Positions 26,342 to 53,047 of a stretch of 64,000 nt of DNA are shown in pieces. Each line of letters begins with the position of its first letter. Position 1 is the first letter of the stretch. Made by a program: the position numbers and the translations under genes. Below the pieces are notes generated by a model. That model had not been told where the DNA came from and did not search any database. It saw only the letters and a list, made by a program, of their open reading frames with translations. Origin of the DNA: Robiginitomaculum sp. (GTDB lineage Bacteria > Pseudomonadota > Alphaproteobacteria > Caulobacterales > Maricaulaceae); NCBI GenBank assembly GCA_021776595.1, contig JAJFFP010000064.1, forward strand, positions 1 to 64,000, given 5' to 3'.

Positions 26342-28669
<2,328 letters not shown>

Positions 28670-36935: not shown

Positions 36936-38324
36936 ATGCAAACGACCCTTGAAAAACAACGCGCCGCCTTTCGCGTAGAGCCCAATCCATCGTTTGCATT
37001 GCGTGATGACCGTCTGCAACGTCTGGAGCGGATGTTAAAACAAAATGCTGACGAGATTGCGCAAACGGTCTCTGAGGATTTTGGGCATCGCTCCAAGGTA
37101 GAAACGCGGCTGGCCGACATTGCGGCGTTGATTACCGAGATCAAGCACACGCGGGCGCATCTGAAAAAATGGATGCGGGTGGAAAAACGCCCGGTCGCCC
37201 TGCAATTCAAACCGGCAAAAAATGAAGTGCATTACCTGCCCAAAGGCGTGGTCGGTATTATCAGTCCATGGAACTACCCGTTCCAACTGGCCATATCGCC
37301 GCTAATCGCCGCGCTTGGTGCTGGCAACCGGGCCATGATCAAACCCTCAGAGTTGACCCCGCGCACCTCAGAGCTGACCAAGCGCTTGCTGGGCCAGATA
37401 TTTGCAGATGATCTGGTGGCGGTAATTACGGGCGATGCCAAGGTCGCGCAGGAATTTTCAACCCTGAAATTTGACCATATGCTGTTCACCGGCTCGACCA
37501 ATGTTGGCCGTTATGTCATGGAGGCCGCAGCCAAAAACCTGACCCCGGTAACGCTGGAGCTTGGCGGCAAATCACCAACAGTAATTGATTATGACTTTCC
37601 GCTGCAGACTGCCGCCGAACGTATTCTCTCCGGAAAATTACTAAATGCCGGCCAGACCTGTGTCGCCCCGGATTATATTCTTGCCCCCAAAGACCAGATT
37701 GAGGCTACCGCAGAGGAACTTACCAGGGTCTGCCGCCGGTTTTACCCTAACATCCATGATAATGATGATTATACCGCGATCATTTCAGAAAAGCATTTTG
37801 CCCGTCTGAACGCCCTGCTTGATGATGCGCGGGACAAGGGCGCAAATATTATTGAAATTTACCCGGAAGAAGCAAAAACCAGCAGCAATGTGCGCAAAAT
37901 GCCGCCCAAGCTGATTACCAACACGACCCCGGATATGACCATTATGCAAGAAGAAATATTCGGGCCACTCTTGCCGCTTTTGCCCTATGAAAGCATTGAC
38001 GATGCCATTGATTATATTGGCGATCAGGCGCATCCGCTGGCGCTGTATGTGTTTTCGGATAACAAGGTCGTGGTTGAGCGTATGAGTGATGAAGTGCTGG
38101 CCGGCGGTATGGCGATCAATGACACGTTGATGCACCTTACCCAGAACGATCTGCCCTTTGGCGGCGTAGGTGATAGCGGCATGGGCGCCTATCACGGCCA
38201 TGACGGATTTTTGACTTTTTCACACGCCAAAGCCATCTTCCACCAGTCAAAAATCAATGGCCGGAAAATGTTGTTTCCACCCTATGGCAAAACCATCAAT
38301 CGTATTTTGGGCTTTATGAGTTAG
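36936..38324 (+). CDS. Coniferyl-aldehyde-dehydrogenase-like aldehyde dehydrogenase
   Basis: An NAD(P)-dependent aldehyde dehydrogenase of 462 residues. The active-site glutamate is in LELGGKSP and the nucleophilic cysteine in NAGQTCVAPDY. The cofactor-site GIISPWNYPFQLA is near residue 107. The lack of the N-terminal extension, the C-terminal hydrophobic tail and the overall pattern match the coniferyl aldehyde dehydrogenase/ALDH3-like group. The true substrate may be a fatty or aromatic aldehyde. It is tightly followed by two membrane-protein genes, suggesting a lipid-related operon. Confidence 0.88.
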   Translation: MQTTLEKQRAAFRVEPNPSFALRDDRLQRLERMLKQNADEIAQTVSEDFGHRSKVETRLADIAALITEIKHTRAHLKKWMRVEKRPVALQFKPAKNEVHYLPKGVVGIISPWNYPFQLAISPLIAALGAGNRAMIKPSELTPRTSELTKRLLGQIFADDLVAVITGDAKVAQEFSTLKFDHMLFTGSTNVGRYVMEAAAKNLTPVTLELGGKSPTVIDYDFPLQTAAERILSGKLLNAGQTCVAPDYILAPKDQIEATAEELTRVCRRFYPNIHDNDDYTAIISEKHFARLNALLDDARDKGANIIEIYPEEAKTSSNVRKMPPKLITNTTPDMTIMQEEIFGPLLPLLPYESIDDAIDYIGDQAHPLALYVFSDNKVVVERMSDEVLAGGMAINDTLMHLTQNDLPFGGVGDSGMGAYHGHDGFLTFSHAKAIFHQSKINGRKMLFPPYGKTINRILGFMS

Positions 38325-38336
38325 GTCTTGATCGTC

Positions 38337-38777
38337 ATGCACGATTATATTGTGGTTCTGGTGCCGTCCCTGATTGCCATTGTGATTATGGTGATTTTGA
38401 TCAAGGCCACCCGGCTGGAACATCTGGTGCGCCTTGATAATGAGGCCATTGTGCAAAGCGCCATAGATGAGCACTTTGAAGGTCAGAAAATTGACCACAT
38501 CATCCTCAGTAAAGACACCCAATATGCGCTTGCTATCATGCAGGACGGCACGGTTATTCTGGTTCGGGCTTTTGGTGATCGCATGACCGTGCGGGTACTC
38601 AATGAAAAAAATATCACCAGCCTGAACGGGCAGGATGAAGCCCTGGAGATTAAGCTCAATGACTACACCTGGCCCCGTGCGCATCTTGTATTTGAAAATA
38701 CGGCGGCGCGGAGCAAAGTCCAGGATATGATTGAAAAGCTGACACAAAATCCTGCGGAGGCCGTATCCCATGCCTGA
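38337..38777 (+). CDS. Unknown protein with one N-terminal membrane helix
   Basis: A 146-residue protein with one hydrophobic helix (about residues 5-24) and a soluble domain. I do not recognise a family. The middle part (TQYALAIMQDGTVILVRAFGD) looks like a small beta-rich domain. The gene starts 12 bp after the aldehyde dehydrogenase and overlaps the next gene by 8 bp, so the three are one operon. A TTG three codons upstream is a possible start. Confidence 0.7.
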   Translation: MHDYIVVLVPSLIAIVIMVILIKATRLEHLVRLDNEAIVQSAIDEHFEGQKIDHIILSKDTQYALAIMQDGTVILVRAFGDRMTVRVLNEKNITSLNGQDEALEIKLNDYTWPRAHLVFENTAARSKVQDMIEKLTQNPAEAVSHA

Positions 38778-39696
38778 GTTTTTACAAGGCACGCCCGTAA
38801 CCACCCTGGCGGCACCATTATTTGTTTTGCTGATTATCGCTGAAATTATCCTCATCAAAGTGCGCGGTAAAGGCGGTGACTATGAAAGCAGGGATGCCGC
38901 CACCAGTGTTTTCATGGGGCTGGGCAGCACCATCGTTGATGGGCTGGTGGGTTTTATTTCCGTAGCTTTGCTGTTTGCAGCTTATCAGATTGCGCCCATC
39001 AAATTGCCAATTAACTGGCTCACCGGTTTTGCCTGTTTTATGCTGGTTGATCTGGCCTATTACTGGATTCACCGCTATTATCACCGGTCGCGCTGGGGAT
39101 GGGCCGCCCATGTGATCCATCACTCCTCACAGCATTACAATCTGACCACAGCCCTGCGTCAGACCTGGACAGGCTTGCTGTCGGGCGGGGTGTTATTATT
39201 TGTGCCGATTGCTCTTTTGGGCTTTCATCCGGCTTTATTGGCGTTTTGTTATGGTCTGAACCTGATTTACCAATTCTGGTTCCATACCGAAGTGATCGAT
39301 AAAATGCCCCGCTGGTTCGAAGCCATCATGAACACCCCATCGCATCACCGGGTCCATCATGCCAATAACCCGCGTTATCTGGATGCCAATTATGCCGGCG
39401 TATTTATTATCTGGGATAAAATGTTTGGCACGTTTGTCGCTGAACGCAAGGACGATGCCCCGCGCTATGGTCTGGTCAATGATCTTGGCACTTTTAATCC
39501 ATTACGGGTTTCCACCCATGAATATGTTGGTATCCTCAAAGACGCCACGCAAAAAGGCCTGAGCCTGAAACAACGCATCTGGTATATTTTTGCCGAACCC
39601 GGCTGGTGCCATGACGGGGGGCGCAAATCCTCCCGCCAGATCAAGGCCAGTTATGTCGCTCGCCACCCCGAACATAAAGGCGAGCCTGGGCTTTAG
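38770..39696 (+). CDS. Fatty acid hydroxylase / sterol desaturase family protein
   Basis: A membrane di-iron enzyme of 308 residues. The histidine boxes are present: HRYYH near residue 99, HVIHHSSQHYN near residue 115 and SHHRVHH near residue 195. Four or so membrane helices surround them. Members hydroxylate or desaturate lipids, or cleave alkyl ether bonds. The substrate is not clear here. The neighbouring aldehyde dehydrogenase could oxidise a fatty aldehyde released by such an enzyme; that link is an inference. Confidence 0.88.
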   Translation: MPEFLQGTPVTTLAAPLFVLLIIAEIILIKVRGKGGDYESRDAATSVFMGLGSTIVDGLVGFISVALLFAAYQIAPIKLPINWLTGFACFMLVDLAYYWIHRYYHRSRWGWAAHVIHHSSQHYNLTTALRQTWTGLLSGGVLLFVPIALLGFHPALLAFCYGLNLIYQFWFHTEVIDKMPRWFEAIMNTPSHHRVHHANNPRYLDANYAGVFIIWDKMFGTFVAERKDDAPRYGLVNDLGTFNPLRVSTHEYVGILKDATQKGLSLKQRIWYIFAEPGWCHDGGRKSSRQIKASYVARHPEHKGEPGL

Positions 39697-39743
39697 CCAC
39701 CATCCTGTGCTTGTCTAAGGATAAAGATGTTTGTGGTGCCATC

Positions 39744-40052
39744 CATCCTTCGAGGCCGCACCAGTAACACTTACTGGTGGGGCACCTCAGAGCCTGCCCC
39801 GGACCTGATCCTCAGGATGAGGGGGATGATTTAATTCCGGCCTCATGTTGAGGCGGCGCGCAGCGCCCTCGAAACATGGAGTGCCACACGCCTGTAATAT
39901 ACCCCACCAGCGCCCCTGTTGGATAAGTATCGGCTATCCCCCACGCTCTAAATCAAACGTGTCATCCCGGCCACCGAGCCGGGGTCCATTGTGATTCTCA
40001 ATGCGCAAAGGCTTGAAATAATAGACCCTCCGATCAAGCCGGAGGGCGACGA
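39744..40052. repeat. Palindromic repeat mosaic in a convergent gap
   Basis: CATCCTTCGAGG...CTCAGGATGAGGGGG (39744-39826) and a diverged CCTCATGTTGAGG...CCCTCGAAACATGG (39841-39880) belong to the family at 16473 and 28812. At 39961-40052 GTCATCCCGG...CCGGGGTCC and GACCCTCCG...CGGAGGGCGACG form a further two-hairpin unit. The rest of the 600-bp gap to the permease gene has no ORF of note; it holds CCCCTTA repeats. Confidence 0.65.
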
Positions 40053-40115
40053 AGGGCAGTGTTTGTGATTTAGAATGGGTTTATCCCGTGCATAGGCCTC
40101 AAGGGTCACACACTA

Positions 40116-40217
40116 CCCCTTAATGACCCTCGTGCTGTCCCTGAAAACCCCCTCAAGTGACCCTTATTAACCCTTTCCGACCCCTTAAATCAGGCTTATT
40201 GCCCCTTATTGGCCCTG
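40116..40217. repeat. Cluster of CCCCTTAnnGrCCCT-like short repeats
   Basis: Copies read CCCCTTAATGACCCT (40116), ACCCTTATTAACCCT (about 40160) and GCCCCTTATTGGCCCT (40201), with an extra CCCCTTAAAT at 40181. A fourth full copy, GCCCCTTAACGGCCCT, is at 42276. Function unknown. Confidence 0.5.
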
Positions 40218-40294
40218 TGTTATTTGGGGGTTACCCGTCATTATCCCCGCCTACACAAAACAGGATATAATCGTGCAATTTGGAAGTGCGGTAT

Positions 40295-41224
40295 TTAGCG
40301 ATCTTTGGGATCAATGGCATCACGCAAGCCATCGCCGATAAAGTTAAAGCAATACAGGGTGATCATCATTGCCACGGCAGGAAATAACAATGTCCAGGGC
40401 ATGGTTTCCATATCCTGCGCCCCATTGGCGATCAGCTTGCCAAGCGAGGTCAGGGGTTCTTGCACCCCAAGCCCTAAAAAGCTGAGGAAACTTTCAGCCA
40501 ATATGACCGAAGGAATGGTCAGGGTGACATAAACCACCACCGGCCCCAGCACATTGGGCACAATATGGCGGCCAATAATGATAAACGGGCGCACACCGGC
40601 GGCCTCAGCGGCCTCGATAAACTCTTTTCGCTTCAAGGCGATGGTCTGGCCGCGCACAATTCGCGCCATGGTTAGCCATTCCACGGCGCCAATGGCCACA
40701 AAGATCAGCAATATATTCAAGGCCGGCCTGCCGGTGGTGAAATCCTTGAACACCACCATCAGTATGATCACAAAAAAGATAAACGGCATGGCATAAAGCG
40801 TATCAACGATACGCATCATAAACTCATCGACCTTGCCACCAATATAACCCGCCGTGGCACCCCAGATCACACCGATAACCAGAGAAACAAAAGTGGCCAC
40901 CACGCCAACGGCCAGCGAAACCCGAAGGCCGTAAAGCAGGCGGACAAAAAGATCGCGCCCCTGTGCATCAGTGCCAAACCAGAACCAGTCATCAAAAGTT
41001 GGCGCTATACCAACCTTTAGCTTGTAAACATGGTCATAATCATGAGGCCAAACCCATGGTCCGGCAATGGCCAGAACGGTAATGCCGATCAGCAAAAAAA
41101 TGCTGGCAACGGCGGCGCGATTTTTCAATAGACGCGCGCGCGCATCATCCCAGAGTGAGCGGCCCTGCACACTGGCTTTTTCCATAAGCGCCTCGGTGCG
41201 CGCCTGTCGTGAGGTGCTGATCAT
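40295..41224 (-). CDS. Oligopeptide/dipeptide ABC transporter permease (OppC type)
   Basis: The second inner-membrane permease of a peptide/nickel-class ABC importer. The 309-residue protein starts with a cytoplasmic stretch and the first helix, followed by the OppC-type FWFGTDAQGRDLFVRLLYGLR. The ATPase-contact loop is EFIEAAEAAGVRPFIIIGRHIVPNV. It follows the OppB-type gene after 3 bp. No binding protein or ATPase gene is adjacent on either side, so these must be encoded elsewhere or the pair is a remnant. Confidence 0.92.
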   Translation of the reverse strand: MISTSRQARTEALMEKASVQGRSLWDDARARLLKNRAAVASIFLLIGITVLAIAGPWVWPHDYDHVYKLKVGIAPTFDDWFWFGTDAQGRDLFVRLLYGLRVSLAVGVVATFVSLVIGVIWGATAGYIGGKVDEFMMRIVDTLYAMPFIFFVIILMVVFKDFTTGRPALNILLIFVAIGAVEWLTMARIVRGQTIALKRKEFIEAAEAAGVRPFIIIGRHIVPNVLGPVVVYVTLTIPSVILAESFLSFLGLGVQEPLTSLGKLIANGAQDMETMPWTLLFPAVAMMITLYCFNFIGDGLRDAIDPKDR

Positions 41225-41227
41225 GGC

Positions 41228-42157
41228 TCAATCATACCGGACTTTTGGATCAAGAACCCCGTAAAGCAGGTCCGCGATCAGATTTAGGGCAATGATGAGG
41301 GTGGCATACAAAATAACGACGCCCATGACGACCGTATAGTCTCGTTGCAGCGCCCCCATGACAAATTGCCGGCCAATGCCTGGCAGGGCAAAAATCTGCT
41401 CGACCACGATCGAGCCTGTTAGCAAAGCCGCCGTGGCCGGGCCAAGATAACTGACCAGCGGCAAAATTGCCGCCCGTAATGCGTGACGAATAATAACCGC
41501 ATAGCCGGGCAGACCCTTGGCGTAGGCGGTCCTGATATAATTGGAGCGCAAGGTCTCAATCATGCTGGCGCGCATGAGACGTGAAATAATGGCAATTTGC
41601 GGCAAGGAAAGGGTTATGACCGGCAGCAGCAAATGGGTAAAGGTTAATTGTCCCCGATCCAGACCCGCCGTTGGTAACCAGCCCAGATAAAGTCCGAAAA
41701 CCAGCGCCAAAACCGGCCCGGTCACAAAGGGCGGTATGCTGATCCCGGTCATGGCTATGCCCATAACTGCGTAATCGCCCGCCTTGTTTTGCCTAAGCGC
41801 GGCAAAGCCACCAAGAAAACCGCCGACCAGCACCGCCAGCGCCATCGCCGACAGACCCAGCGTCGCGCTAACCGGGAAACCCTCGGCAATAATATTGCTG
41901 ACCGTCTTGTCCTTGTATTTCATTGAAGGACCAAGGTCGCCTTTGGATAAGTCTTTGAGATAATAGCCAAACTGTGTGACAATTGGCTTATCCAGATGGA
42001 ATTTTTCCGCCAGCCGCGCCTTGATTTCAGCCGGGATCGGGCGCTCAAGATCAAACGGGCTACCCGGTGCGGCGCGCATTAAAAAGAAAGCAAGGGTAAT
42101 AATCAGGAAAACCGTTGGAATTGCGATAAGCAACCGGCGGACAAGAAATCCAAACAT
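41228..42157 (-). CDS. Oligopeptide/dipeptide ABC transporter permease (OppB type)
   Basis: The first permease of the same importer, with 309 residues and six helices. Typical features are the N-terminal LVRRLLIAIPTVFLIITLAFF and MRAAPGSPFD, and the coupling loop YIRTAYAKGLPGYAVIIRHALRNA-type segment (here HALRAAIL). It is the first gene of the two-gene unit and divergent from the DUF442 protein. Confidence 0.92.
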   Translation of the reverse strand: MFGFLVRRLLIAIPTVFLIITLAFFLMRAAPGSPFDLERPIPAEIKARLAEKFHLDKPIVTQFGYYLKDLSKGDLGPSMKYKDKTVSNIIAEGFPVSATLGLSAMALAVLVGGFLGGFAALRQNKAGDYAVMGIAMTGISIPPFVTGPVLALVFGLYLGWLPTAGLDRGQLTFTHLLLPVITLSLPQIAIISRLMRASMIETLRSNYIRTAYAKGLPGYAVIIRHALRAAILPLVSYLGPATAALLTGSIVVEQIFALPGIGRQFVMGALQRDYTVVMGVVILYATLIIALNLIADLLYGVLDPKVRYD

Positions 42158-42275
42158 GAAACACCGTAAAAGAGGTTGACCTGAAGCGCGAACCTTTCAT
42201 GTGCCCGATAGGCTGTCAACGCACAGCCCTGCGCTTTGATCTAGCAATTTTAGTAAATTTTCTGGTTGGGAAACA

Positions 42276-42292
42276 GCCCCTTAACGGCCCTC
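42276..42292. repeat. Single CCCCTTAnnGrCCCT repeat copy
   Basis: GCCCCTTAACGGCCCTC lies in the divergent gap between the permease pair and the DUF442 gene. It matches the cluster near 40116-40217. Confidence 0.45.
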
Positions 42293-42437
42293 AACCAGAT
42301 GTGATCTATCGTGTATTGCCCACCATGGTATAAAGGGGGCAATTTGATCTGAATGTTGATTATAAACGCAAGTATTATTAGTGAGAAGCAAGCTGTGCCC
42401 CGTCGTGTTTAACCCAAATTTCTACATGAGAGTTTTT

Positions 42438-42989
42438 ATGCGCTTTATGGTTACTTCTACAAGTTTTTTACAAATCTTGTCCTTGCTAATATTCCTGTTT
42501 ATTGCACCCGCTTCCTATGGGCGTGATAATACAGAACATAAGGTAACATTTCGTGCCGTTACCGATAATTTTTCCGTTTCTGCACAAATATCGCCTGCTG
42601 ATGTCAAAAAAGCCGCCGCCATGGGTTACACACTGATCATCAATAACCGGCCCGATGGCGAGGGTGGATCAAGCCAGCCGACCAGCGAGGCACTGGAACG
42701 TGCCGCCAAACAAGCTGGCATTGCATACCGGTATGTTCCGTTTCGTTCTGGCCAGATTACGGATCAGGCGATGGCCACGATGATGGATATTCTAAACCGG
42801 CAGGGAGACAAAAAAACCCTGGCGTTATGCCGTTCTGGCACACGGGCAATTACCATATGGGCCATGGCGCAAAGCGCGCTTGGCAAAATGTCTGTGGATG
42901 AACTGATCCTGGCAGCCAGGCGCGCCGGTTACAATCTGGAGCGCCAGCGCTCGCAATTGGAAGCGCTCGCGGCAAACGGCAAACGCTGA
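42438..42989 (+). CDS. Exported DUF442/TIGR01244-type phosphatase-like protein
   Basis: A protein of about 183 residues with a hydrophobic signal (LQILSLLIFLFIAPASYG). The domain is the beta-lactamase-hydrolase-associated, tyrosine-phosphatase-like fold. FRAVTDNFSVSAQISPADV and INNRPDGE begin it, and ALCRSGTRA (Cys-x5-Arg) forms the catalytic loop. The family is often cytosolic or fused to a Blh sulfur dioxygenase; here it stands alone and looks exported. I chose ATG 42438 (GAGAG upstream); 42426 is also possible. A metallo-beta-lactamase-fold gene is about 1.4 kb downstream. Confidence 0.8.
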   Translation: MRFMVTSTSFLQILSLLIFLFIAPASYGRDNTEHKVTFRAVTDNFSVSAQISPADVKKAAAMGYTLIINNRPDGEGGSSQPTSEALERAAKQAGIAYRYVPFRSGQITDQAMATMMDILNRQGDKKTLALCRSGTRAITIWAMAQSALGKMSVDELILAARRAGYNLERQRSQLEALAANGKR

Positions 42990-42993
42990 AAAA

Positions 42994-43347
42994 TCAACGA
43001 TAAATAACAATGCGCGGAGAAATACAATGTTTTGTGCTGGCCACAGGCACATCAAGAACACCGGCCGTATCGGTCCGGGCGAGATAGGTGCTGCATGTTT
43101 TTCCGTTTCGGCTTTCAATGGTTATGGTTGCAATTTCGCCGGGCGCACTCAACAATGCTCCTCTGCCCGGCAAGGAAAGCATCATGACCGGGCTATGATT
43201 ATTATGAATGGTATTGCTAACTTTATGGCTGTTTTGTCGATTTTCTTCACCCGATGCCACGCTTGCCAGACCAAGGGCAAGCGCAAACCCGGTTATGGCC
43301 AGAGCTTTTCTTACATGTTGATCGCCCGCTTTATTTCCCTGTTTCAT
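42994..43347 (-). CDS. Small secreted protein of unknown function
   Basis: A 117-residue protein with a signal peptide (KALAITGFALALGLASVASG). Two cysteines in the mature part (TCSTYL and KHCISP) could form a disulfide in the periplasm. The segment GEIATITIESRNGKTCSTY suggests a small beta-sandwich. The family is not recognised. Its end faces the DUF442 gene 4 bp away (convergent), and its start is divergent from the ATP-grasp-like gene. Confidence 0.6.
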   Translation of the reverse strand: MKQGNKAGDQHVRKALAITGFALALGLASVASGEENRQNSHKVSNTIHNNHSPVMMLSLPGRGALLSAPGEIATITIESRNGKTCSTYLARTDTAGVLDVPVASTKHCISPRIVIYR

Positions 43348-43433
43348 TTCGCAACACCTGACCCTGTTTCTACCGGTCATTGCGCAAAGGCCGCGCCAGC
43401 GCATTGGTGTTGGCAATCAGAAAGGAAATGCGC

Positions 43434-44381
43434 ATGGACCCTGTGAGAAACCCAACGTCCTGGTGGCATGATCTGGCGCTAGAGCGCGGCGGCCTGCGCG
43501 CCCTGAGAACCGGCGCGTTAATACCCCTTTCACCTGGCAATCTGATTGCCATGGGACGTGGGTTTGCCAATTATTCAGCGACGCAAGGGTTGCGCCTTGG
43601 CAATTCTCTAATGCGCGGCAAGCCTCTTAGCATCGCCTTTACGCCGCACCGGCCACAGCCATGGCATTTGATCTGGTCGGTTCTGCATACCGCTGGCGGG
43701 CGCATTGTGGGCGATACGGCCAAAGCCGATGCCGTGTTCTATTTTGAAGATACAACCACCTGCGAAGAACACCCCCTGAACGCGGTGCCAGATGAACATA
43801 TATTGCGGCAAATCAATTGCGCCTGCCTTGATGTTTCCAAATCAAGAGTTGCCCGTGTGTTTGAGGAAGTTTTTGGCTATCCATTGGCAATTGATCCAAC
43901 CAAATGGCAGGGGTTGGCGGTAGAAAAGTCCGAAATAAATGGTGCCCATGACGGGCAGGTGGTCACCTGCCCCGCCGAGCGCAAAGACGGCAAAGTCTAT
44001 GAACATCTGATCAATAATTCGGACAATGGCCGGTTTGTCGAAGACTTTCGCGCGCCCACCGTTGGCGGTGAAATCACGCTGGTATACATCAAACAGAGAA
44101 GCCTTGATTATCGTTTTGCCAATACCAATGATCGCGTATTATTGCGTTGGCCGGAACAGGTTTTTTCCCTCGAAGAGCGTGAAAAACTAAAACAGTTCTG
44201 TCAGGCCATGAATTTGGACTGGGGCGGTCTTGATGTGCTGCGCGATCGACAAAGTGGCCGCCTTTATGTTGTGGATGTCAATAAAACCGACATGGGCCCG
44301 CCCACGGCATTGGCCATCGTGGATCAGGTGCGCTCCGTTCGCGCTCTGGCCAAAGCCTTTCGCGCGTATATGAACCGGTAA
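43434..44381 (+). CDS. ATP-grasp-like protein of unknown substrate
   Basis: A soluble protein of 315 residues. The C-terminal part NLDWGGLDVLRDRQSGRLYVVDVNKTDMGPP resembles the end of ATP-grasp ligases, where Asp and Asn ligate magnesium (about residues 270-300). The preceding VYIKQRSLDYRF and VEDFRAP fit a degenerate core. I chose ATG 43434, with AAAGGAA upstream; ATG 43428 is an alternative. The next gene, a metallo-beta-lactamase-fold hydrolase, starts 12 bp later, so the two are probably co-transcribed. The specific reaction is unknown. Confidence 0.6.
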   Translation: MDPVRNPTSWWHDLALERGGLRALRTGALIPLSPGNLIAMGRGFANYSATQGLRLGNSLMRGKPLSIAFTPHRPQPWHLIWSVLHTAGGRIVGDTAKADAVFYFEDTTTCEEHPLNAVPDEHILRQINCACLDVSKSRVARVFEEVFGYPLAIDPTKWQGLAVEKSEINGAHDGQVVTCPAERKDGKVYEHLINNSDNGRFVEDFRAPTVGGEITLVYIKQRSLDYRFANTNDRVLLRWPEQVFSLEEREKLKQFCQAMNLDWGGLDVLRDRQSGRLYVVDVNKTDMGPPTALAIVDQVRSVRALAKAFRAYMNR

Positions 44382-44393
44382 TGGCACCAATCT

Positions 44394-45293
44394 ATGGCTG
44401 ACATTCCCTTTATTCGTGATTTTGAGCCAAAATACGGCGCGCTGGTTCGCATTTCTAAAAATGTCCGGCGTCTGGTAGCCAATAATTCGGGCCCGTTTAC
44501 CGCCTGGGGCACCAATGTCTATGTTGTCGGCAAGGATGAGGTTTTTGTATTTGACCCCGGCCCAAACCTGAACGCACATTTTGAGGTTCTGCTCCAGTCC
44601 CTTGGAAACGAAAAAGTAAACGGTATTTTTATTACCCATCACCATATGGATCATTCACCCCTTGCGGCCCGTCTGGCGCAGCATTTCGGATGCTTAACCT
44701 ATGGCATCGGGGCCCCTGAAAAGCCCGCTGCGGGGCAGGATATTAAGCTGGAGGCCGGAGAGGATTACAGTTTCCAGCCAAAGGTTACGATTAAAGACGG
44801 GCAGGTATTTACGGGCAATGGCTGGTCCATCGAGGCAGTGCATACGCCGGGACACACCTCCAACCATGTTTGTTATGGGGTGTTGGGTGATAATGGCCTG
44901 ATCTGCGGCGATCATATCATGGGCTGGGCGACCTCGGTGGTTATCCCGCCTGATGGCGATATGGATGATTATTTGCGTTCGCTGCAAAAGGTGCAATTGC
45001 GAAATTATGATGTTTTATGGCCGGGTCATGGAGCCCCGATTGATCAGCCCGCCCGTTTTATACGCGCCTATATTGACCACCGGCAGAAACGAAACATGCA
45101 AATACTGCAACAACTTGGCAAAGGCCAAAGAAGGATAAAGGATATTGTGCCGGTTATCTATGCCGATACGGACCCAGGGCTTTACCCGGCAGCCAGCATC
45201 TCGGTATTGTCGCACATGATTTTTTTAATCAAAAGCGGCAAAGTGATTGGTGACGGTCCACCAGGGTTAAAAACCAGCTATCATCTGGCCTGA
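44394..45293 (+). CDS. Metallo-beta-lactamase-fold hydrolase
   Basis: A zinc hydrolase of 299 residues resembling the LACTB2/RNase Z-like and glyoxalase II-like group. The metal motif THHHMDHSPL is near residue 81, followed by HTPGHTSNH, ICGDHIMGW and the late WPGHGAPI histidine. The C-terminal helical part (RKRNMQILQQL...) is a winged-helix-like tail seen in LACTB2 relatives. The substrate is unknown. It is co-directional with the ATP-grasp-like gene. Confidence 0.88.
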   Translation: MADIPFIRDFEPKYGALVRISKNVRRLVANNSGPFTAWGTNVYVVGKDEVFVFDPGPNLNAHFEVLLQSLGNEKVNGIFITHHHMDHSPLAARLAQHFGCLTYGIGAPEKPAAGQDIKLEAGEDYSFQPKVTIKDGQVFTGNGWSIEAVHTPGHTSNHVCYGVLGDNGLICGDHIMGWATSVVIPPDGDMDDYLRSLQKVQLRNYDVLWPGHGAPIDQPARFIRAYIDHRQKRNMQILQQLGKGQRRIKDIVPVIYADTDPGLYPAASISVLSHMIFLIKSGKVIGDGPPGLKTSYHLA

Positions 45294-45656
45294 TTACCAG
45301 CCGATCCAGGAATGCGGGTTTTCAATCGGCAAATCCTTATTTGCGCGCATAAGACCGACAATGGCCCGCGCCAGATACCACAAGGTCAGAACCGGGATCA
45401 GAAAAAACCCGATAATGATAAAACACAGAAGAACAACGATAAACGTATACAGCAAGCCAATCCAAAACGTGCGTATCTGATAAATCAAATGGCTGCGGGG
45501 TCCTGACGGCGCGCCATTTATGGTGCTGTAGGCGATAATCACGCCGACAATGCCGGTAAAAGGTATCACCACATTGGCTATATAAAGAATGTAGACCAGT
45601 TTGACTTTTTGTTTCAGGTCTTCTGCGGGGTTTGGCGTGCTTTGCATGTCAATCAT
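45294..45656 (-). CDS. DUF4870-like membrane protein
   Basis: A 120-residue protein with three hydrophobic segments (about residues 20-45, 62-85 and 80-105). The pattern KLVYILYIANVVIPF...GVIIAYSTING and LIYQIRTFWIGLL fits the DUF4870/YIP-like small membrane family. Function unknown. Its stop codon abuts that of the MBL-fold gene (convergent). Confidence 0.7.
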   Translation of the reverse strand: MIDMQSTPNPAEDLKQKVKLVYILYIANVVIPFTGIVGVIIAYSTINGAPSGPRSHLIYQIRTFWIGLLYTFIVVLLCFIIIGFFLIPVLTLWYLARAIVGLMRANKDLPIENPHSWIGW

Positions 45657-45742
45657 CGTATTATCTCACGTTTTTCGATAAATTATCCTAGCCGCCTGCA
45701 ATGCCAGCGGCTAGGGTCAAAACTCATTCAGATGGGGTCATC

Positions 45743-46057
45743 ATGCAAATCGTAACCACGGATTATCTGCCCGGTGAAACCGTGCAAACCACGCTGGGGA
45801 TCGCGCGCGGCAGCGTTGTGCGAGCCCGCTTTATCGGACGGGACTTTATTGCCGGTTTGAGAAATCTGGTGGGCGGCGAGATCAATGAATATACAAACCT
45901 TCTGGCGGAATCACGTGAGCAATCTTTGGAACGTATGGTCCTTCATGCTCAATCCATGGGCGCTGATGCGGTTTTGAATGTTCGTTTTACTTCTAACACC
46001 ATTATGGAAGGCACCGCCGAAATGCTGGCCTATGGAACCGCCGTAAAACTGCAATGA
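45743..46057 (+). CDS. YbjQ family (UPF0145) protein
   Basis: A 104-residue soluble protein of the UPF0145/DUF74 family, whose members form pentamers and are described as putative heavy-metal-binding. The N-terminal TTDYLPGETVQTTLGIARG and the later SMGADAVLNVRFTS are family hallmarks. The start at 45743 follows GGGG. It overlaps lepB by 4 bp and is the first gene of the operon reaching dxs. Confidence 0.9.
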   Translation: MQIVTTDYLPGETVQTTLGIARGSVVRARFIGRDFIAGLRNLVGGEINEYTNLLAESREQSLERMVLHAQSMGADAVLNVRFTSNTIMEGTAEMLAYGTAVKLQ

Positions 46058-46821
46058 GCGAAACGCCAAAAACATCATACAGAATCAAGGCAGAGGCCAT
46101 TGAATGGCTTAGGTTTCTGGTTGTCTTCCTGGCAGGTTTTTTTGTTTTTTCTTCTCTTTTTTATGCCCTGTTTTTCATCCCGTCGGGATCAATGCGCCCA
46201 ACCCTTGAGGTGGGCGATCGCTTTGTGGCATCAAAATGGGCCTATGGCTGGTCGCGCTATTCATTGCCATGGGGCGCATCACGGTTATTACCGCCAAAAA
46301 AGGGGCGGGTTTTTGGCCGTATGCCCAAGCGAGGCGATGTTGTAGTTTTTGTGAACCCGAAAAACAATATGGTCATGATCAAGCGCGTTATCGGACTGCC
46401 AGGCGATATTATCGAGACCAGAGGCGGGCGGCTCTATATCAATGGAGAGCGTGTGCCACGAACTTTTTTACGAATGACCCGCTTTCGCGATCATTATGGC
46501 CAGATCCGTAACGCCCAGGTCTATACGGAAACTTTTGACGGCAACCGGCGGCCGCACACCATTTATGAATATTCGGATCAAATGGTATTAAGCGGCTGGT
46601 CGCCCGATGATTCCGGGCCTTTTACCGTTCGCGACGGGCATATTTTCATGATGGGGGACAACCGGGATAATTCCAGCGACAGCCGCGCCCCCGATGGACC
46701 GGGGCAGGTGCCGCTGGAGAATTTGGTCGGCAAGGCGCAAACGGTGCTTTTTACTTTTGCCCGCTGCCGTCATGAACCAGGACTGGATTGCCCGACCGGG
46801 CGTCTGTGGCGATTATTTTAG
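46054..46821 (+). CDS. lepB: Signal peptidase I
   Basis: It cleaves signal peptides from exported proteins at the periplasmic face of the inner membrane. The catalytic serine is Ser46 in FIPSGSMRPTL and the lysine is Lys110 in MVMIKRVIGLPGD; the C-terminal GDNRDNSSDSR box is intact. One N-terminal helix (about 19-42) anchors it. At 255 residues it is normal for alphaproteobacteria. It is translationally coupled to the YbjQ-type gene. In many relatives lepB instead sits with acpS and rnc, so the location is slightly unusual. Confidence 0.95.
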   Translation: MSETPKTSYRIKAEAIEWLRFLVVFLAGFFVFSSLFYALFFIPSGSMRPTLEVGDRFVASKWAYGWSRYSLPWGASRLLPPKKGRVFGRMPKRGDVVVFVNPKNNMVMIKRVIGLPGDIIETRGGRLYINGERVPRTFLRMTRFRDHYGQIRNAQVYTETFDGNRRPHTIYEYSDQMVLSGWSPDDSGPFTVRDGHIFMMGDNRDNSSDSRAPDGPGQVPLENLVGKAQTVLFTFARCRHEPGLDCPTGRLWRLF

Positions 46822-46830
46822 GAGTTTTTC

Positions 46831-47709
46831 ATGAGCTTATCCGGCAAAACCGTATTTATCACCGGGGCCAGTCGCGGCATTGGTCTGGCGATCGCCAAAA
46901 AATGCGCAAGTGATGGTGCCAATATCGTGATCGCTGCCAAGTCCGCTGAACCCCACCCCAGCCTGCCTGGCACCATTTACACCGCCGCTGACGAAGTGTG
47001 TGCAGCGGGCGGCAAAGCCCTGCCTCTGGTTTGCGACATTCGTTTTGAGGATCAGGTGGAAGCCGCCGTGACCAAGGCGGTAAATGAATTTGGCGGCATT
47101 GATATACTGGTCAATAATGCTTCAGCCATTTTCCCGCGCGGGGTGCTGGACACACCCATGAAACGCTTTGACTTGATGCACCAGGTTAATACACGTGGCA
47201 CCTATATGGTCACACAAAAATGCCTGCCCCATTTGCTCAAATCCGCAAACCCCCATGTGCTAATGCTGTCGCCACCACTGGATATGCAAGAAAAATGGTT
47301 CGCCCCCCATACGGCCTATACCATGGCTAAATTTGGCATGAGCCTGTGTGTTTTGGGCATGGCTGGTGAGTTTCGTGATCAGGGCGTAGCGTTTAATGCG
47401 CTTTGGCCCCGAACCGCCGTGGCTACGGCTGCGATTGCCAATATACTGGCCGGTGAAGAGGGTATGAAAATGTGCCGCAAGCCGCAAATACTTGCCGATG
47501 CTGCTTATCTTGTATTTAACAAAACCGCCCGTGATTTCAGCGGTAATTTTCTCATTGATGACGCGTTATTATACGAAAATGGCGTGCGTGATTTTGACGC
47601 GTATCGGGTGGATACCACGCAACCGCTATTACCTGACTTTTTTGTCCCCGATGAGGGCTACCCCGCCCCGCCCGGCGTCGAAGTTCTGGATATTGCCTTG
47701 AGTCAATGA
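46831..47709 (+). CDS. SDR oxidoreductase (HSDL2-like)
   Basis: A short-chain dehydrogenase/reductase of 292 residues. TGASRGIG (residues 11-18) binds NAD(P), LVNNAS follows, and the catalytic Ser and Tyr-x3-Lys are in LMLSPP and YTMAK. The pattern, including CDIRFEDQVEAAV and the PP-rich tail after residue 255, resembles the SDR part of hydroxysteroid dehydrogenase-like protein 2; the sterol-carrier domain of eukaryotic HSDL2 is absent. Its stop overlaps the next gene by 4 bp. Substrate unknown. Confidence 0.88.
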   Translation: MSLSGKTVFITGASRGIGLAIAKKCASDGANIVIAAKSAEPHPSLPGTIYTAADEVCAAGGKALPLVCDIRFEDQVEAAVTKAVNEFGGIDILVNNASAIFPRGVLDTPMKRFDLMHQVNTRGTYMVTQKCLPHLLKSANPHVLMLSPPLDMQEKWFAPHTAYTMAKFGMSLCVLGMAGEFRDQGVAFNALWPRTAVATAAIANILAGEEGMKMCRKPQILADAAYLVFNKTARDFSGNFLIDDALLYENGVRDFDAYRVDTTQPLLPDFFVPDEGYPAPPGVEVLDIALSQ

Positions 47710-48632
47710 GCACAGCCCTGATCATCCACCAGGACTGCAATTTGCATGTGGAAACGCCCGGCCATGCAGAACAGCGCCGCCGTCTGGATGCCGTGTTACA
47801 AGCCCTGGAAACGGCTGCCCTGCCCTGTGTGCGCCTCGAAGCGCCACTGGCGAAACGAGAAGATTTGTTACGGGTCCATACACCTGAATACGTCGATCTC
47901 ATTTTGGGCTCCTGCCCAAAAAATGGCTGGAAACAACTCGACCCGGATACCGCCCTTAGCCCCGGCTCGGCAGAAGCCGCCTTGCGGGCCACCGGCGCGG
48001 TAATTATGGCCGTTGACGGGGTTATGGCAAAAGAATTCAACACGGCATTTTGTGCGGTGCGCCCGCCGGGACACCATGCCCGACCCGCCAAAGCCATGGG
48101 GTTTTGTCTCTTTAACGGGATTGCTATCGCCGCGCGTTATGCCCAGCAGGCATACCGGCTTGAACGCGTTGCCGTCATAGATTTTGACGTGCATCATGGC
48201 AATGGCACTCAGGAGATGCTTAATAATGTGCATGGGGCGCTATACGCTTCCTTGCATCAAAGCCCGCTTTATCCCGGCAGCGGAAAAGCAGAGGAACGTG
48301 GGCAAAGCGGGCAGATCATCAATGTGCCTCTACCTGCCGGTACTAGATCACATGAATGGCGTCAGGCCTATCTTGAACATATCCATCCGGCATTAATCAG
48401 GTTTGCCCCGCAAATGATTTTCATCTCTGCAGGCTTTGACGGACACCGCGATGACCCACTGGCACAATTTAACCTGGGCAGCGCCGATTATGGGTGGATT
48501 ACTGATAAACTGGTCAACATTGCCATGAAAAGCGCTAAGGGGCGGGTTGTTTCCGTGCTTGAGGGCGGCTACGACTTGGGCGCGCTGGACCGGTCCAGCG
48601 TGGCGCATATGCGCGCACTTTGTGAAGCATGA
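47706..48632 (+). CDS. Histone deacetylase family protein
   Basis: A zinc-dependent amidohydrolase of the arginase/deacetylase superfamily, 308 residues. RPPGHHA, DFDVHHGNG and SAGFDGH carry the charge-relay histidines and zinc ligands. Bacterial members act on acetylpolyamines, acetoin-related systems or acetyl-lysine; the substrate here is unknown. It is coupled by 4-bp overlaps to both the SDR before it and the phosphatase after it. A family member just upstream of xseB-ispA-dxs is common in alphaproteobacteria. Confidence 0.92.
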   Translation: MSTALIIHQDCNLHVETPGHAEQRRRLDAVLQALETAALPCVRLEAPLAKREDLLRVHTPEYVDLILGSCPKNGWKQLDPDTALSPGSAEAALRATGAVIMAVDGVMAKEFNTAFCAVRPPGHHARPAKAMGFCLFNGIAIAARYAQQAYRLERVAVIDFDVHHGNGTQEMLNNVHGALYASLHQSPLYPGSGKAEERGQSGQIINVPLPAGTRSHEWRQAYLEHIHPALIRFAPQMIFISAGFDGHRDDPLAQFNLGSADYGWITDKLVNIAMKSAKGRVVSVLEGGYDLGALDRSSVAHMRALCEA

Positions 48633-49300
48633 ATGACTTTACGCAAACAGAGACACTCCCCCTGGGAAATGGCATGACACAGGCAATTAAGGCAAATGTG
48701 CATGCGGCAGGCCCGCAAGGACGCCGTAGCGGCAGCATTGTGCTGGCCCGTCATGGCCGCCCGGATACGGATAAATCGCACTGGATTTCTGCAAAAGGAT
48801 ATTATCAATGGTGGCGTGGCTATGATGAGAGCGGGCTTGACCCTAAATCACCGCCGCCCAAAAACCTGTTGGCAGAGGCGGCCCGCGCTGATCATATTTT
48901 TGCCAGCGACCTGCGCCGGGCACAGGAAACCGCCAAGGCTGTCGCCAATGGCAAACCCATCACCTTTGATCCGGTTTTTACCGAGGCCCCCTTGCCGCCA
49001 CCACCCTTTCCATCCCTGATCCGTATGCGCCCACCCCATTGGGATGTATGGTCACGCAGCCTGTGGTGGCTTGGCTACTCTGGTGGATTTGAAAGCCGTG
49101 CAGAGGCTGAAGGGCGTGCCTTTGCCGCCGTGGACAGAATTGACCCCCTTGCCAGAAATGGAGAAAATGTTCTGGTCTGCGCCCATGGCTGGTTTAACCG
49201 CATGATGCGCCCGGCGCTGGTGGCCAATGGCTGGAATTGCATTTATGATGGCCGGGATGATTATTGGTCCTATCGGCGTTATGAACGCGTTATGACCTAA
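48629..49300 (+). CDS. Histidine phosphatase family protein
   Basis: A phosphoglycerate-mutase-like phosphatase of 223 residues. The nucleophilic histidine is in LARHGRPD near residue 40, the acid/base region near SDLRRAQETAKA, and the second histidine in CAHGWFNR. The hydrophilic N-terminus of about 35 residues precedes the domain. The gene starts inside the stop of the deacetylase-family gene. Substrate unknown. Confidence 0.88.
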   Translation: MNDFTQTETLPLGNGMTQAIKANVHAAGPQGRRSGSIVLARHGRPDTDKSHWISAKGYYQWWRGYDESGLDPKSPPPKNLLAEAARADHIFASDLRRAQETAKAVANGKPITFDPVFTEAPLPPPPFPSLIRMRPPHWDVWSRSLWWLGYSGGFESRAEAEGRAFAAVDRIDPLARNGENVLVCAHGWFNRMMRPALVANGWNCIYDGRDDYWSYRRYERVMT

Positions 49301-49317
49301 GAAAATAGAGAAATTTT

Positions 49318-49560
49318 ATGCCTGCATCTGCTGATATTAAAGATCTGAATTTTGAGGCCGCGCTGGCTGAACTGGAAACAATCGTTCAACAACTTGAAAA
49401 CGGCAATGTTGAGCTGGAGAAATCCATCAAAATGTATGAACGTGGGGCGGCCCTGAAAGCCCATTGCGAGAAAAAACTGGCGGCGGCCAAATTGAAAATT
49501 GAAAAAATTATCATGGGTCCAGATGGGCAGGTCAGCACAGAACCAGCAAAGATCGACTGA
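49318..49560 (+). CDS. xseB: Exodeoxyribonuclease VII small subunit
   Basis: The small subunit of the single-strand-specific exonuclease VII. The 80-residue helical protein has the characteristic FEAALAELETIVQQLENGNVELEKS pattern (residues 11-35). xseA is not in the window, as usual. ispA starts 2 bp after the stop. Confidence 0.93.
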   Translation: MPASADIKDLNFEAALAELETIVQQLENGNVELEKSIKMYERGAALKAHCEKKLAAAKLKIEKIIMGPDGQVSTEPAKID

Positions 49561-49562
49561 AT

Positions 49563-50459
49563 ATGGAAGCCCAGGATACATTCAAGGAACGGCTGGAAAA
49601 TGTGGCCGACAAGGTTACGGTGGCGCTGGATGCGTTGATCCCGCCGGTTGCCGGGCCGGAAAGCCAGTTGCTTTCGGCCATGCGTTATGCCGCCCTTGGC
49701 AACGGCAAACGACTGCGCCCGTTTTTTGTGCTCGAATGTGGACGCCTGTTTGACATTAACGAGCGCTCATTATTGCGCGTAGCTTCTGCGGTGGAGTGCA
49801 TTCATGCCTATTCGCTGATCCATGACGATCTGCCGGCGATGGATGATGACGATCTGCGCCGGGGTCGCCCTACCGTTCACAAAGCCTATGATGAAGCCAT
49901 AGCGGTGCTGGCCGGGGATGCGCTGCAATCCCTTGCCTTTGAAATCATCAGTGATGAAGAGACCCATGCCGGTCCCAAAGTGCGTAACCAGTTGATCCAT
50001 AAACTGGCCATTGCGTCCGGTGCACGCGGTATGGCAGGCGGGCAGGCGATTGATGTATCGGTCAAGGACAATGAGCTGGAAATGCCCCTGATTGCCCGCA
50101 TGCAGCGTATGAAAACCGGCGCATTGTTTCAGTTTTCCGCCGAAGCGGGCGCAACCATGGCGCAAGCCAGCACCGAGGCTTTTGCCGCCCTAAGTGGCTT
50201 TGCCCATGATCTGGGCCTGGCCTACCAAATCGCCGATGATCTTCTGGATGTAGAAGGCGAGCAAAGCAATACCGGCAAAGCTGTTGGCAAGGACGCCGCA
50301 AACGGCAAGGCCAGTTTTGTTCTGACGCTAGGGCCCGAACAAGCCAAAAAGCGCGCACGGCTTTTGGCAGAGCAGGCCAAGTCACATCTGGAATTTTTTG
50401 GACAAAGTGCCACAATTTTGCGCCAATCCATTGATTTTGTGATAGAGCGGACTGGATAA
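49563..50459 (+). CDS. ispA: Polyprenyl (farnesyl) diphosphate synthase
   Basis: A prenyltransferase that condenses IPP with DMAPP/GPP to farnesyl diphosphate. The first aspartate-rich motif is HDDLPAMDDDDLRRG near residue 83 and the second is IADDLLD near residue 222. The 298-residue length and the layout match IspA. The gene lies between xseB and dxs, so precursor supply and chain elongation are co-transcribed. Confidence 0.95.
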   Translation: MEAQDTFKERLENVADKVTVALDALIPPVAGPESQLLSAMRYAALGNGKRLRPFFVLECGRLFDINERSLLRVASAVECIHAYSLIHDDLPAMDDDDLRRGRPTVHKAYDEAIAVLAGDALQSLAFEIISDEETHAGPKVRNQLIHKLAIASGARGMAGGQAIDVSVKDNELEMPLIARMQRMKTGALFQFSAEAGATMAQASTEAFAALSGFAHDLGLAYQIADDLLDVEGEQSNTGKAVGKDAANGKASFVLTLGPEQAKKRARLLAEQAKSHLEFFGQSATILRQSIDFVIERTG

Positions 50460-50476: not shown

Positions 50477-52402
50477 ATGACAAAGAAAAGCTCCATTCTG
50501 GATAAGGTGAATTCTCCCGCCGATACCAGGGATTTTAACATTGGCGAATTGCGCGAACTGGCAGATGCGGTGCGCCACGAGGTTGTTGATGCGGTTTCTG
50601 TAACCGGTGGTCATTTGGGTGCCGGGCTTGGGGTGGTCGAGCTCACTGTAGCCTTGCACCATGTATTTGATACACCAAAAGATCGCCTGATCTGGGATGT
50701 GGGCCATCAGTGCTATCCCCATAAAATCCTTACCGGCCGCAAGGATCGCATCCGCACCCTGCGCCAGGGCGACGGACTATCCGGTTTTACCAAGCGAGCC
50801 GAAAGTGAATACGACCCCTTTGGTGCCGCCCATGCTGCCACCTCTATTTCAGCCGGTTTGGGCATGGCCGTTGCCAGAGACATCAAGGGTGAAGACAATC
50901 ACGTCATCTGTGTGATCGGCGATGGCTCCATGAGCGCAGGTATGGCCTATGAAGCCATGAATAATGCCGGTGCCATGGATAAACGCCTGATCGTTATTTT
51001 GAACGATAATGATATGTCAATTGCCCCGCCGGTCGGCGCATTAAGTGCGCATTTGGCGCGCCTGGTTTCTGGAGGCGCTTATACTACCATGCGTCGTCTG
51101 GCCAAGGATGTGGCCAGTCATTTACCACGGCCGCTTATGGAAGCAGCCCGCAAAACCGAAGAATATGCCAGAGGCATGGCCGCTGGTGGCACCTTGTTTG
51201 AAGAGCTTGGCTTTTATTATGTAGGTCCGATTGATGGGCATAATCTGGATCATCTGGTTCCCATTTTAGAAAATGTGCGCGATTTAAAAGACGGGCCGGT
51301 ACTGATCCATGCGGTCACGCAAAAGGGCAAAGGCTATGCACCGGCGGAAAGCGCCGCCGATAAATATCATGGCGTTGCGCGCTTTAATGTCATCACCGGA
51401 GAACAGCAAAAGGGCAAAGCCGGTCCCCCCAGTTATACCAAAGTATTTGCCGATGCGCTGATCCATGAAGCCAAAAAAGATGACCGCATCGTGGCCATCA
51501 CCGCCGCCATGCCAGGTGGAACGGGTCTGAATCACTTTGCCAAAGCCTTTCCGGAGCGCATGTTCGATGTGGGTATTGCCGAACAACATGCCGTGACCTT
51601 TGCTGCCGGGCTTGCCGCCGATGGCATGAAGCCTTTTGCGGCGATTTATTCCACCTTTTTACAACGCGGCTACGATCAGGTGGTTCATGATGTGGCCATA
51701 CAGGGCCTGCCAGTGCGTTTCGCACTGGATCGCGCCGGGCTGGTGGGGGCCGATGGCCCAACCCATGCCGGGGCGTTTGATATTGGTTATCTGGGCGCCC
51801 TGCCGGGCATGGTGCTGATGGCCGCCGCCGATGAGGTGGAGCTGGCGCGCATGGTCGCAACGGCAACGACAATCGATGACCGGCCCAGTGCCTTTCGTTA
51901 TCCGCGTGGCAACGGGATTGGTCTGGCCATACCGGTGGAGCCGAAAATTTTGCAAATCGGCAAAGGAAGAATTGTGCGTGAAGGCACCACTATTGCCCTG
52001 CTTTCTCTTGGCGGGCGCCTGGAAGAAGCCGGCAAGGCGGCTGATCTGCTGGAAGCCAAAGGGTTTTCCACCACACTGGCCGATGCCCGTTTTGCCAAAC
52101 CACTGGATGAAGACCTGATTATCCGGCTGGCACGGGAGCATGAGGTGCTTGTCACCATTGAAGAGGGCGCGCGCGGTGGCTTTGGTGCCTTCGTGCTTGA
52201 ATTACTGGCGGCCAAAGGCGCGCTGGACTGTGGCCTGAGAATCCGCACCCTGACCCTGCCGGACAGTTTTATTGATCATGACACGCCTGAGCGCATGTAT
52301 CAGCGCGCCGGACTGGATGCACAACATATCGCAGCCGCCGCCCTGGAGGCACTGGGGCGTGATGTGGGCGTAATTACACTGGATTCGGGAAAATTGGCAT
52401 AG
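50477..52402 (+). CDS. dxs: 1-deoxy-D-xylulose-5-phosphate synthase
   Basis: A thiamine-diphosphate enzyme that joins pyruvate and glyceraldehyde 3-phosphate, the first step of the non-mevalonate isoprenoid pathway. [10 protein letters not shown] near residue 75, the TPP-binding [18 protein letters not shown] and the transketolase-type [15 protein letters not shown] are intact. At 641 residues it is full length. It ends the operon; the convergent methyltransferase gene ends 9 bp away. Confidence 0.97.
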
Positions 52403-52411
52403 GCCCAATGC

Positions 52412-53047
52412 CTATTTGGCGCGCTCAAAAACCAGACAAAAGTTATTGGCGGGCATCGGCACGGTTTTGCGCAATTTTAGACCACGCCCCCTGGCCAGTA
52501 AAATAACGTCCTCCATATTGCGCACTCCCCAATCTGAATTTCGCTCACGCAGGCTTTGATCAAAAGCAGCATTACTGGGTGCGGTATGTTTGCCACCTTT
52601 GCGATATGGCCCATAAAGGATTAGTGCGCCTCCAACACCCAGGCATTGTCCGGCAAGGCGCATTAGCCCCTGTGTGGCTGACCATGGGGAAATATGGATC
52701 ATATTGATATTTAAGATGGCATCAAAATACGAGGGCCATTTCTTGCGCGTTACGCGCGCCAGCCGGTCCTCATCGCAAACGTCCAGCATTTGCGCTGGCA
52801 TGATGCGCCCCTCAAGCTCGCCATGACGACGCCAGGCATTGATACTTTTTATATGCAATGGATCCAAATCACTGGGCCACCAGATCAGATCGGGCAGGTG
52901 TGTGCAAAAGTGCACCCCGTGTTGACCGGACCCGGAAGCAATTTCCAGAACATCGCGGGTGCGCAGGGAAAGCTCACTTTTCAGAACGGCTAAAATGGCC
53001 GGAGCATTTCGGCGACTGGAAGGAAAATCAAGGCGCTCAGGGCTCAT
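52412..53047 (-). CDS. DUF938 family SAM-dependent methyltransferase-like protein
   Basis: A class I methyltransferase-fold protein of 211 residues. The SAM-binding motif VLEIASGSGQHGVHF is near residue 35, and NINMIHISPWSATQGLM and ILYGPYRKGG are typical of DUF938. The substrate of the family is not established. The ATG at 53047 overlaps the end of the heparinase-like gene by 11 bp, which suggests coupling. Confidence 0.88.
   Translation of the reverse strand: MSPERLDFPSSRRNAPAILAVLKSELSLRTRDVLEIASGSGQHGVHFCTHLPDLIWWPSDLDPLHIKSINAWRRHGELEGRIMPAQMLDVCDEDRLARVTRKKWPSYFDAILNINMIHISPWSATQGLMRLAGQCLGVGGALILYGPYRKGGKHTAPSNAAFDQSLRERNSDWGVRNMEDVILLARGRGLKLRKTVPMPANNFCLVFERAK

Follow-up and report, generated by a model that had tools for sequence, protein, structure and literature searches.

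A conserved set of three genes, encoding a DUF442 protein, an unnamed ATP-grasp enzyme and a metallo-beta-lactamase-fold (MBL) hydrolase, lies on a 64,000-nucleotide stretch of DNA from Robiginitomaculum sp. (NCBI GenBank assembly GCA_021776595.1, contig JAJFFP010000064.1, positions 1 to 64,000; hereafter the window), which is contig C61 of a 2.63 Mb draft genome (G000). The set is apparently undescribed and built from known folds, and its conservation points to an undescribed metabolic step, not to sulfide detoxification. We tentatively read it as a conserved three-enzyme metabolic module, next to a divergent importer of the oligopeptide (Opp) type, in which an enzyme of ATP-dependent ligation would be paired with a hydrolase. 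A preliminary description of the window had proposed an unnamed system of four genes at this site, and all four open reading frames are present. The first (42438..42989, + strand) encodes a DUF442/BLH_phosphatase/TIGR01244 protein, assigned by Pfam, NCBIfam and its nearest solved structure (2f46), with a hydrophobic N-terminal leader seen by eye and the active loop C-R-S-G-T-R. The second (42994..43347, - strand) encodes a small secreted-looking protein with a hydrophobic N-terminus, which belongs to no family and was characterised by AlphaFold and alignment. It is followed by the ATP-grasp gene (43434..44381, + strand; the start codon is uncertain and the open frame is listed from 43380), which has no Pfam family and whose fold was taken from a predicted structure, and by the gene for a LACTB2-type MBL hydrolase with a BLACT_WH domain (44394..45293, + strand), which starts 12 bp past the ATP-grasp stop. 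Because the small gene is antisense to the other three, the four genes do not form one transcript. No description of the DUF442, ATP-grasp and MBL set was found in open-licence papers, and this literature contained no mention of DUF442 together with ATP-grasp or of ATP-grasp, metallo-beta-lactamase and Caulobacterales in combination; a single paper in it combined metallo-beta-lactamase, rhodanese, ATP-grasp and operon.

Conservation of the gene order across relatives

Gene neighbourhoods were compared in the best 80 of 274 ATP-grasp loci (the named loci), which come mostly from one order (judging by its named relatives, the Caulobacterales in a broad sense). The best-matching loci were Robiginitomaculum metagenome assemblies, followed by Maricaulis and Hyphomonadaceae, and an ATP-grasp frame was obtained in the clustering for 79 of the 80 (L066 dropped out); 77 loci had enough downstream sequence for the MBL test and 71 had enough upstream sequence. 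The conserved order is DUF442, then ATP-grasp, then MBL. The tight coupling of the ATP-grasp and MBL genes claimed earlier held throughout, the MBL gene being next downstream on the same strand in 77/77 testable loci, with gaps (counted from the stop codon) of -20 to 97 bp and 28 overlapping pairs, 18 of them overlapping by four bases. Among 99 genomes of near relatives (the window's own included; MBL counted at E ≤ 1e-40), the ATP-grasp gene was found in 77, and 74 carried both genes, which were adjacent in 69 when G073 with its decayed ATP-grasp gene is counted. The five relatives with a non-adjacent pair carry the paralogue described below, and G035 also carries a remnant. Decaying ATP-grasp genes were seen as a remnant with stops beside the MBL gene (L245, in G073) and, on contig C11 of G035, as a short leftover next to an MBL gene that is itself split.

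A DUF442 gene was found upstream of the ATP-grasp gene on the same strand in 40/71 named loci. Of two loci from laboratory strains, that of Ponticaulis koreensis DSM 19734 (L071) has all three genes and that of Maricaulis maris DSM 4734 (L062) has ATP-grasp and MBL. Eighteen MBL-centred loci were taken, one from G073 and the others from 17 of the 19 MBL-only relatives (the two not used, G060 and G084, had only partial MBL matches), and DUF442 was counted in them by profile, blastp having missed L244 and tblastn L234. DUF442 stood just before the MBL gene on the same strand in 10/17 of these loci and further upstream in G073, and in three of the loci the distance between its stop and the beginning of the MBL match was 11, 7 and -1 bp. 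The DUF442-MBL neighbourhood is thus conserved even where ATP-grasp is missing, and the core is not ATP-grasp and MBL alone. Neighbourhood conservation across relatives therefore bears out the proposal of an unnamed conserved set for these three genes.

The small secreted protein, counted as a member of the set in the preliminary description, turned out to be a clade-specific neighbour outside the conserved core. It occurs in 14/80 named loci, all Robiginitomaculum, and the co-occurrence of all four genes, to which that description had tied its proposal, was found in 13/80 (L036-L042, L044, L045, L048-L050 and L058, all titled Robiginitomaculum sp.). Two cysteines are invariant in 14 aligned rows of the small protein (L058 was left out of the alignment). 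Its AlphaFold model (pLDDT 68.9) suggests, at low confidence, a leader helix and a small beta domain, and the protein had no match in the PDB at E ≤ 0.001.

In wider samples, the ATP-grasp gene was present in 11 of 289 class-level genomes (two of the order and nine of other orders) and matched in nine of 398 phylum-level genomes, eight of which belong to the order while the ninth gave a doubtful match of 27 bits. The MBL gene was adjacent in five of the nine genomes outside the order (G234, G188, G101, G334 and G236) and not beside the ATP-grasp gene in the other four (G343, G168, G355 and G113), while no DUF442 was seen in the flanking stretches of any of the nine. An inherited gene order without shared function could account for this conservation: the named loci come mostly from one order, the neighbours AroC and PNPOx are also retained in many of them, and adjacency was lost in five of the 74 relatives with both genes. 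However, the flanks vary, with a DUF1499 gene within 2.5 kb of the MBL gene in 34/68 loci and an acyl-CoA ligase cluster gene (one cluster member typed) within the same distance in 14/68, while the ATP-grasp-MBL pair is unbroken in the named loci, often overlaps and recurs outside the order. We therefore consider mere inheritance of the order distinctly unlikely.

An unnamed ATP-grasp family and its metal motif

The ATP-grasp protein matched no Pfam family and only one NCBIfam model, below threshold, and a single-sequence search returned no solved relative at E ≤ 1. Its AlphaFold model, built with a 60-row alignment as input (mean pLDDT 92.5, pTM 0.90), shows a complete RimK/LysX-like ATP-grasp fold, to which ArgX, LysX and RimK were matched from residue 63-66 to residue 315 (Z 16.4-15.4, rmsd 3.2-3.5 Å, 224-231 residues aligned). 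These matches exclude about 60 N-terminal residues (window 43434-43620), where a helix spans residues 34-58. PPIP5K kinases (Z 15.3) and glutathione synthetase (Z 14.7) ranked lower, and as the kinase score is so close to those of the ligases, the fold cannot tell a ligase from a kinase. K136, K165, D204, R206, D267, D281 and N283 are invariant in the 60 rows of the family, and the last five of these align with RimK; the two lysines are presumably ATP ligands. Judged by its predicted fold and these conserved metal and ATP ligands, the window protein is a member of the ATP-grasp superfamily. Among viral structures, the best match was a Mimiviridae sp. ChoanoV1 protein that is itself uncharacterised.

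Profile comparisons, which had been suggested as a check in the preliminary description, placed RimK as the best of several weak matches but gave no relation at the family level. The RimK family (PF08443) did not match the window protein and matched 7/27 members weakly (best E 0.0024), and the inositol kinase family PF05770 matched 6/27 weakly (best E 0.075); a search for PF05770 in 200 genomes found none, nor did it find any in the controls, so it is uninformative. ATPgrasp_ST, in which ST stands for sugar-transfer associated, and ATPgrasp_TupA had no Pfam match in the 27 members at E ≤ 1, and hhalign against them gave probabilities of 0.7 and 0.1 percent (E 0.084 and 0.53; 25 and 11 proteins, respectively). 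Both are ATP-grasp families, and distant relatives of the window protein occur in polysaccharide clusters, but no profile relation between them and the window family was found, and membership in these sugar-transfer families was rejected on that ground. The likeness to the RimK/LysX/ArgX ligases thus consists of the fold and of metal-ligand positions that align in part, whereas structural identity is 10-16% among the best rows, the sequence match stays below the family level, and the window family carries about 60 additional residues at its N-terminus and has a different second metal motif.

This second metal motif is D-x-N in 60/60 rows of the window family, as opposed to E-x-N in 22/25 rows of the RimK set (two rows lack the pattern and one has D) and in 25/25 rows of the ATPgrasp_ST set; the 11 TupA rows are mixed (five without the pattern, three with D and three with E). 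In the inositol pyrophosphate kinase Asp1, the metal is reported to be bound by Asp321, Asp333 and Asn335 (PMC9765450), and the D-D-N metal triad of ITPK/PPIP5K-like kinases is present in the window protein as D267, D281 and N283. A phosphotransfer pair has therefore to be weighed, in which the ATP-grasp enzyme would be a small-molecule kinase, DUF442 its phosphatase and the MBL hydrolase would act elsewhere in the route. We keep this explanation, which we judge unlikely, mainly because of the resemblance of the D-x-N motif to the Asp1 metal residues. The PPIP5K structural score close to the ligases and the weak PF05770 matches also speak for it; nevertheless, LysX, ArgX and RimK score slightly higher by fold and RimK is the better weak match by sequence. 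Its phosphatase half is taken up with the DUF442 protein below.

The distant members of the ATP-grasp family differ in their settings. Some are found in exopolysaccharide clusters (on plasmids of Palleronia and Deinococcus ficus, L034, L035 and L138, and by eye in G343), and those of G355 and G113 are found in other settings. A tree of 54 rows, made by a quick method with a midpoint root and with long branches flagged, has a branch with a support of 81 (unstarred) that sets off five of the six distant rows; L138 does not group with them. The label "MBL adjacent" required five changes on this tree, compared to 14.1 in shuffles (0/500 as low). Seven ATP-grasp paralogues without an adjoining MBL gene form one fully supported set (L148, L149, L150, L151, L152, L155 and L157), and acyl-CoA genes, which are common, lie near four of these seven loci. 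The neighbours of the paralogues include a carboxylase and a dehydrogenase (L148), a dehydrogenase (L149 and L155), and PaaZ with a 3-oxoadipyl-CoA thiolase (L157). With no matching Pfam or NCBIfam model and usually a defined hydrolase beside it, the family is a target worth naming.

The hydrolase, the DUF442 protein and sulfide

The MBL hydrolase carries Lactamase_B (7.3e-25) and BLACT_WH (9e-8) domains in Pfam and matches human LACTB2 (4ad9) over nearly its full length (3.7e-32 by sequence and 2.3e-49 by profile). H82, H84, D86, H87, H154, D173 and H212 are invariant in 20 aligned rows, and we take these seven positions to be metal ligands. By these matches the window MBL is of the LACTB2 type; the likeness to human LACTB2 and its relatives includes the BLACT_WH domain, and the window gene differs in being paired with an ATP-grasp gene. 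LACTB2 is the best solved match, and it is reported to be a mitochondrial endoribonuclease (PMC4770246), so the MBL hydrolase might be an endoribonuclease like the human protein, with the ATP-grasp enzyme modifying a protein or RNA partner. The same paper mentions an earlier prediction of LACTB2 as a member of a glyoxalase II subfamily (PMC4770246), and only 1/20 neighbour-cluster representatives was RNA-linked, an FtsJ/S4 methyltransferase (nine loci, about 7.9 kb from the module). We regard such a role in RNA handling as quite improbable.

DUF442 and MBL folds are partners in Blh enzymes, and the preliminary description had on this ground linked the window set to sulfide handling. This link was not borne out, since the window has a LACTB2-type MBL hydrolase and a separate split Blh-like locus lies elsewhere in the genome. 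At E ≤ 1 the window MBL did not match NF040641, the Blh model; ETHE1 (4chl) was not among its matches at E ≤ 1e-5, and 9g8t was matched at 7.6e-6 only. In contrast, an MBL protein encoded on the genome's contig C23 (L001, around 52538-52861) matched ETHE1 4chl at 6e-23, 9g8t at 2.1e-114 and NF040641 with 382.6 bits over the second half of the model. Its gene adjoins a DUF442 gene (TIGR01244, 148.3 bits) and a gene for a regulator of the ArsR family, for which BigR ranks second among the matches (81.5 bits against a cut-off of 155), and this split Blh-like locus is likely, from these matches, the genome's sulfide locus. A third DUF442 gene (L003, contig C29, around 52144-52470) has no MBL gene that could be recognised by eye among three frames of at least 120 amino acids.

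The window set resembles a Blh/BigR operon (DUF442-ETHE1) in having a DUF442 sulfur-transferase domain near an MBL gene. Here, though, the domain is a separate gene and not fused, the MBL belongs to another subfamily, an ATP-grasp gene lies in between, and no BigR-type regulator was recognised by eye among open reading frames of at least 80 amino acids at 38000-50000, of which eight frames were scanned by profile. A split Blh, in which DUF442 as a sulfur transferase would feed an MBL dioxygenase in sulfide or persulfide handling, would fit the TIGR01244 score of the window protein and the DUF442-MBL neighbours in the 10/17 genomes without ATP-grasp. The subtype of the MBL hydrolase and the presence of an ETHE1-type MBL, a DUF442 protein and an ArsR/BigR-like regulator elsewhere in the genome make it very improbable. 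The sulfide reading of the set was rejected on the MBL subtype and the C23 locus, and a DUF442-MBL neighbourhood need not signal sulfide oxidation.

The DUF442 protein scored 2e-30 with Pfam BLH_phosphatase and 125.8 bits with the TIGR01244 sulfur transferase model (cut-off 85.85). A single solved structure matched it at E ≤ 0.01, 2f46 (6.9e-17), which we take to be NMA1982; the residue numbering of the NMA1982 paper fits the alignment. That paper reports NMA1982 to be a phosphatase and to have a C(X)4R loop (PMC10716126), a loop that the window protein shares and that would suit a phosphatase acting opposite an ATP-grasp kinase. However, its general acid D71 aligns with Q in the window protein and with D in 1/45 rows, in an alignment that is gapped near this column; the difference leans, with the same reservation about the gaps, towards sulfur transfer and away from the phosphotransfer pair. 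The window protein may have a sulfur role, as sulfur-transferase activity was measured for the DUF442 domain of a Blh (PMC5823870). A leader on the DUF442 protein was seen by eye in the Robiginitomaculum clade, where the frames mostly have 180-192 amino acids; about half of the other loci have frames of at most 150 amino acids without a leader. Among 44 DUF442 frames, 20 had at most 150 amino acids and 18 at least 177; in L057, L066, L081 and L102, which belong to the longer group, the extension is seemingly an upstream frame and not a leader.

A tentative ligation module and its setting

In the three-enzyme module that we tentatively favour, a putative carboxylate or acyl-conjugate pathway, the ATP-grasp enzyme would spend ATP on activating a carboxylate, which it would then couple to an amine or a thiol, the MBL hydrolase would cleave a (thio)ester or related bond in the same metabolite pool, and DUF442 would handle sulfane sulfur or phosphate on that pool. 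Likeliest among the candidate substrates would be a peptide taken up from outside or an acyl-CoA-linked acid. The unbroken ATP-grasp-MBL order, the DUF442 neighbourhoods, the ATP-grasp fold with its invariant ligand positions, the putative metal ligands of the MBL hydrolase, and the acyl-CoA genes near the paralogues and, in 14/68 loci, near the MBL gene speak for this reading. A more specific version, in which carboxylate activation by the ATP-grasp enzyme and sulfane sulfur (or phosphate chemistry) supplied by DUF442 would give a thioacid- or thioester-type metabolite that the LACTB2-type hydrolase would then cleave, is in our view a remote prospect. If true, these bacteria would have a cycle of sulfur- or phosphate-marked metabolites not described before, with a new enzyme family and route.

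Several observations weigh against a module of three enzymes. The antisense gene sits between DUF442 and ATP-grasp in the window, and the leader on the window DUF442 protein suggests a possible site outside the cytoplasm, where the protein may act apart from the ATP-grasp and MBL enzymes. Among the 99 relatives, the MBL gene occurs without ATP-grasp in 19 and the ATP-grasp gene without MBL in three, with neither gene in a further three; of the three ATP-grasp-only genomes, two (L153 and L154) have the gene in its usual place and lack the MBL gene. No DUF442 was found upstream of the ATP-grasp gene in 31/71 named loci, nor in the five ATP-grasp-MBL loci outside the order, and the DUF442-MBL loci without ATP-grasp show that two of the genes can pair when the third is absent. 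In a class-level sample of 30 MBL loci from 89 genomes with an MBL match at E ≤ 1e-60 (240 searched), six had ATP-grasp beside the MBL gene, the window's own among them, and in 24 the roughly 1.5 kb of flanking sequence contained no ATP-grasp and no DUF442 gene. The MBL hydrolase thus probably has a basic job alone, and we infer that partners were added to what was already an old and general enzyme, so its function is only partly readable from these partners.

The importer lies on the other side of the DUF442 gene. A peptide-type ABC permease (41228..42157, - strand), divergent from the module, was assigned as BPD_transp_1 for the window copy and is OppB-like in relatives, where a relative's copy was typed; a second permease (40295..41224, - strand) is OppC-like in relatives, only a relative's copy having been typed. 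A divergent OppB gene was found within 2 kb in 59/71 named loci, the NCBIfam scores that typed the Opp representatives falling short of the equivalog cut-offs. An OppA gene, present near the Opp permeases in many relatives, was not recognised by eye near window 40295-42157. PADLOC anti-phage defence profiles gave no match to any of the four proteins at E ≤ 0.01, and a defence system was rejected on this ground. Elsewhere in the window, a catalase-peroxidase-like frame (26345-28669) has a leader-like N-terminus by eye and is possibly exported.

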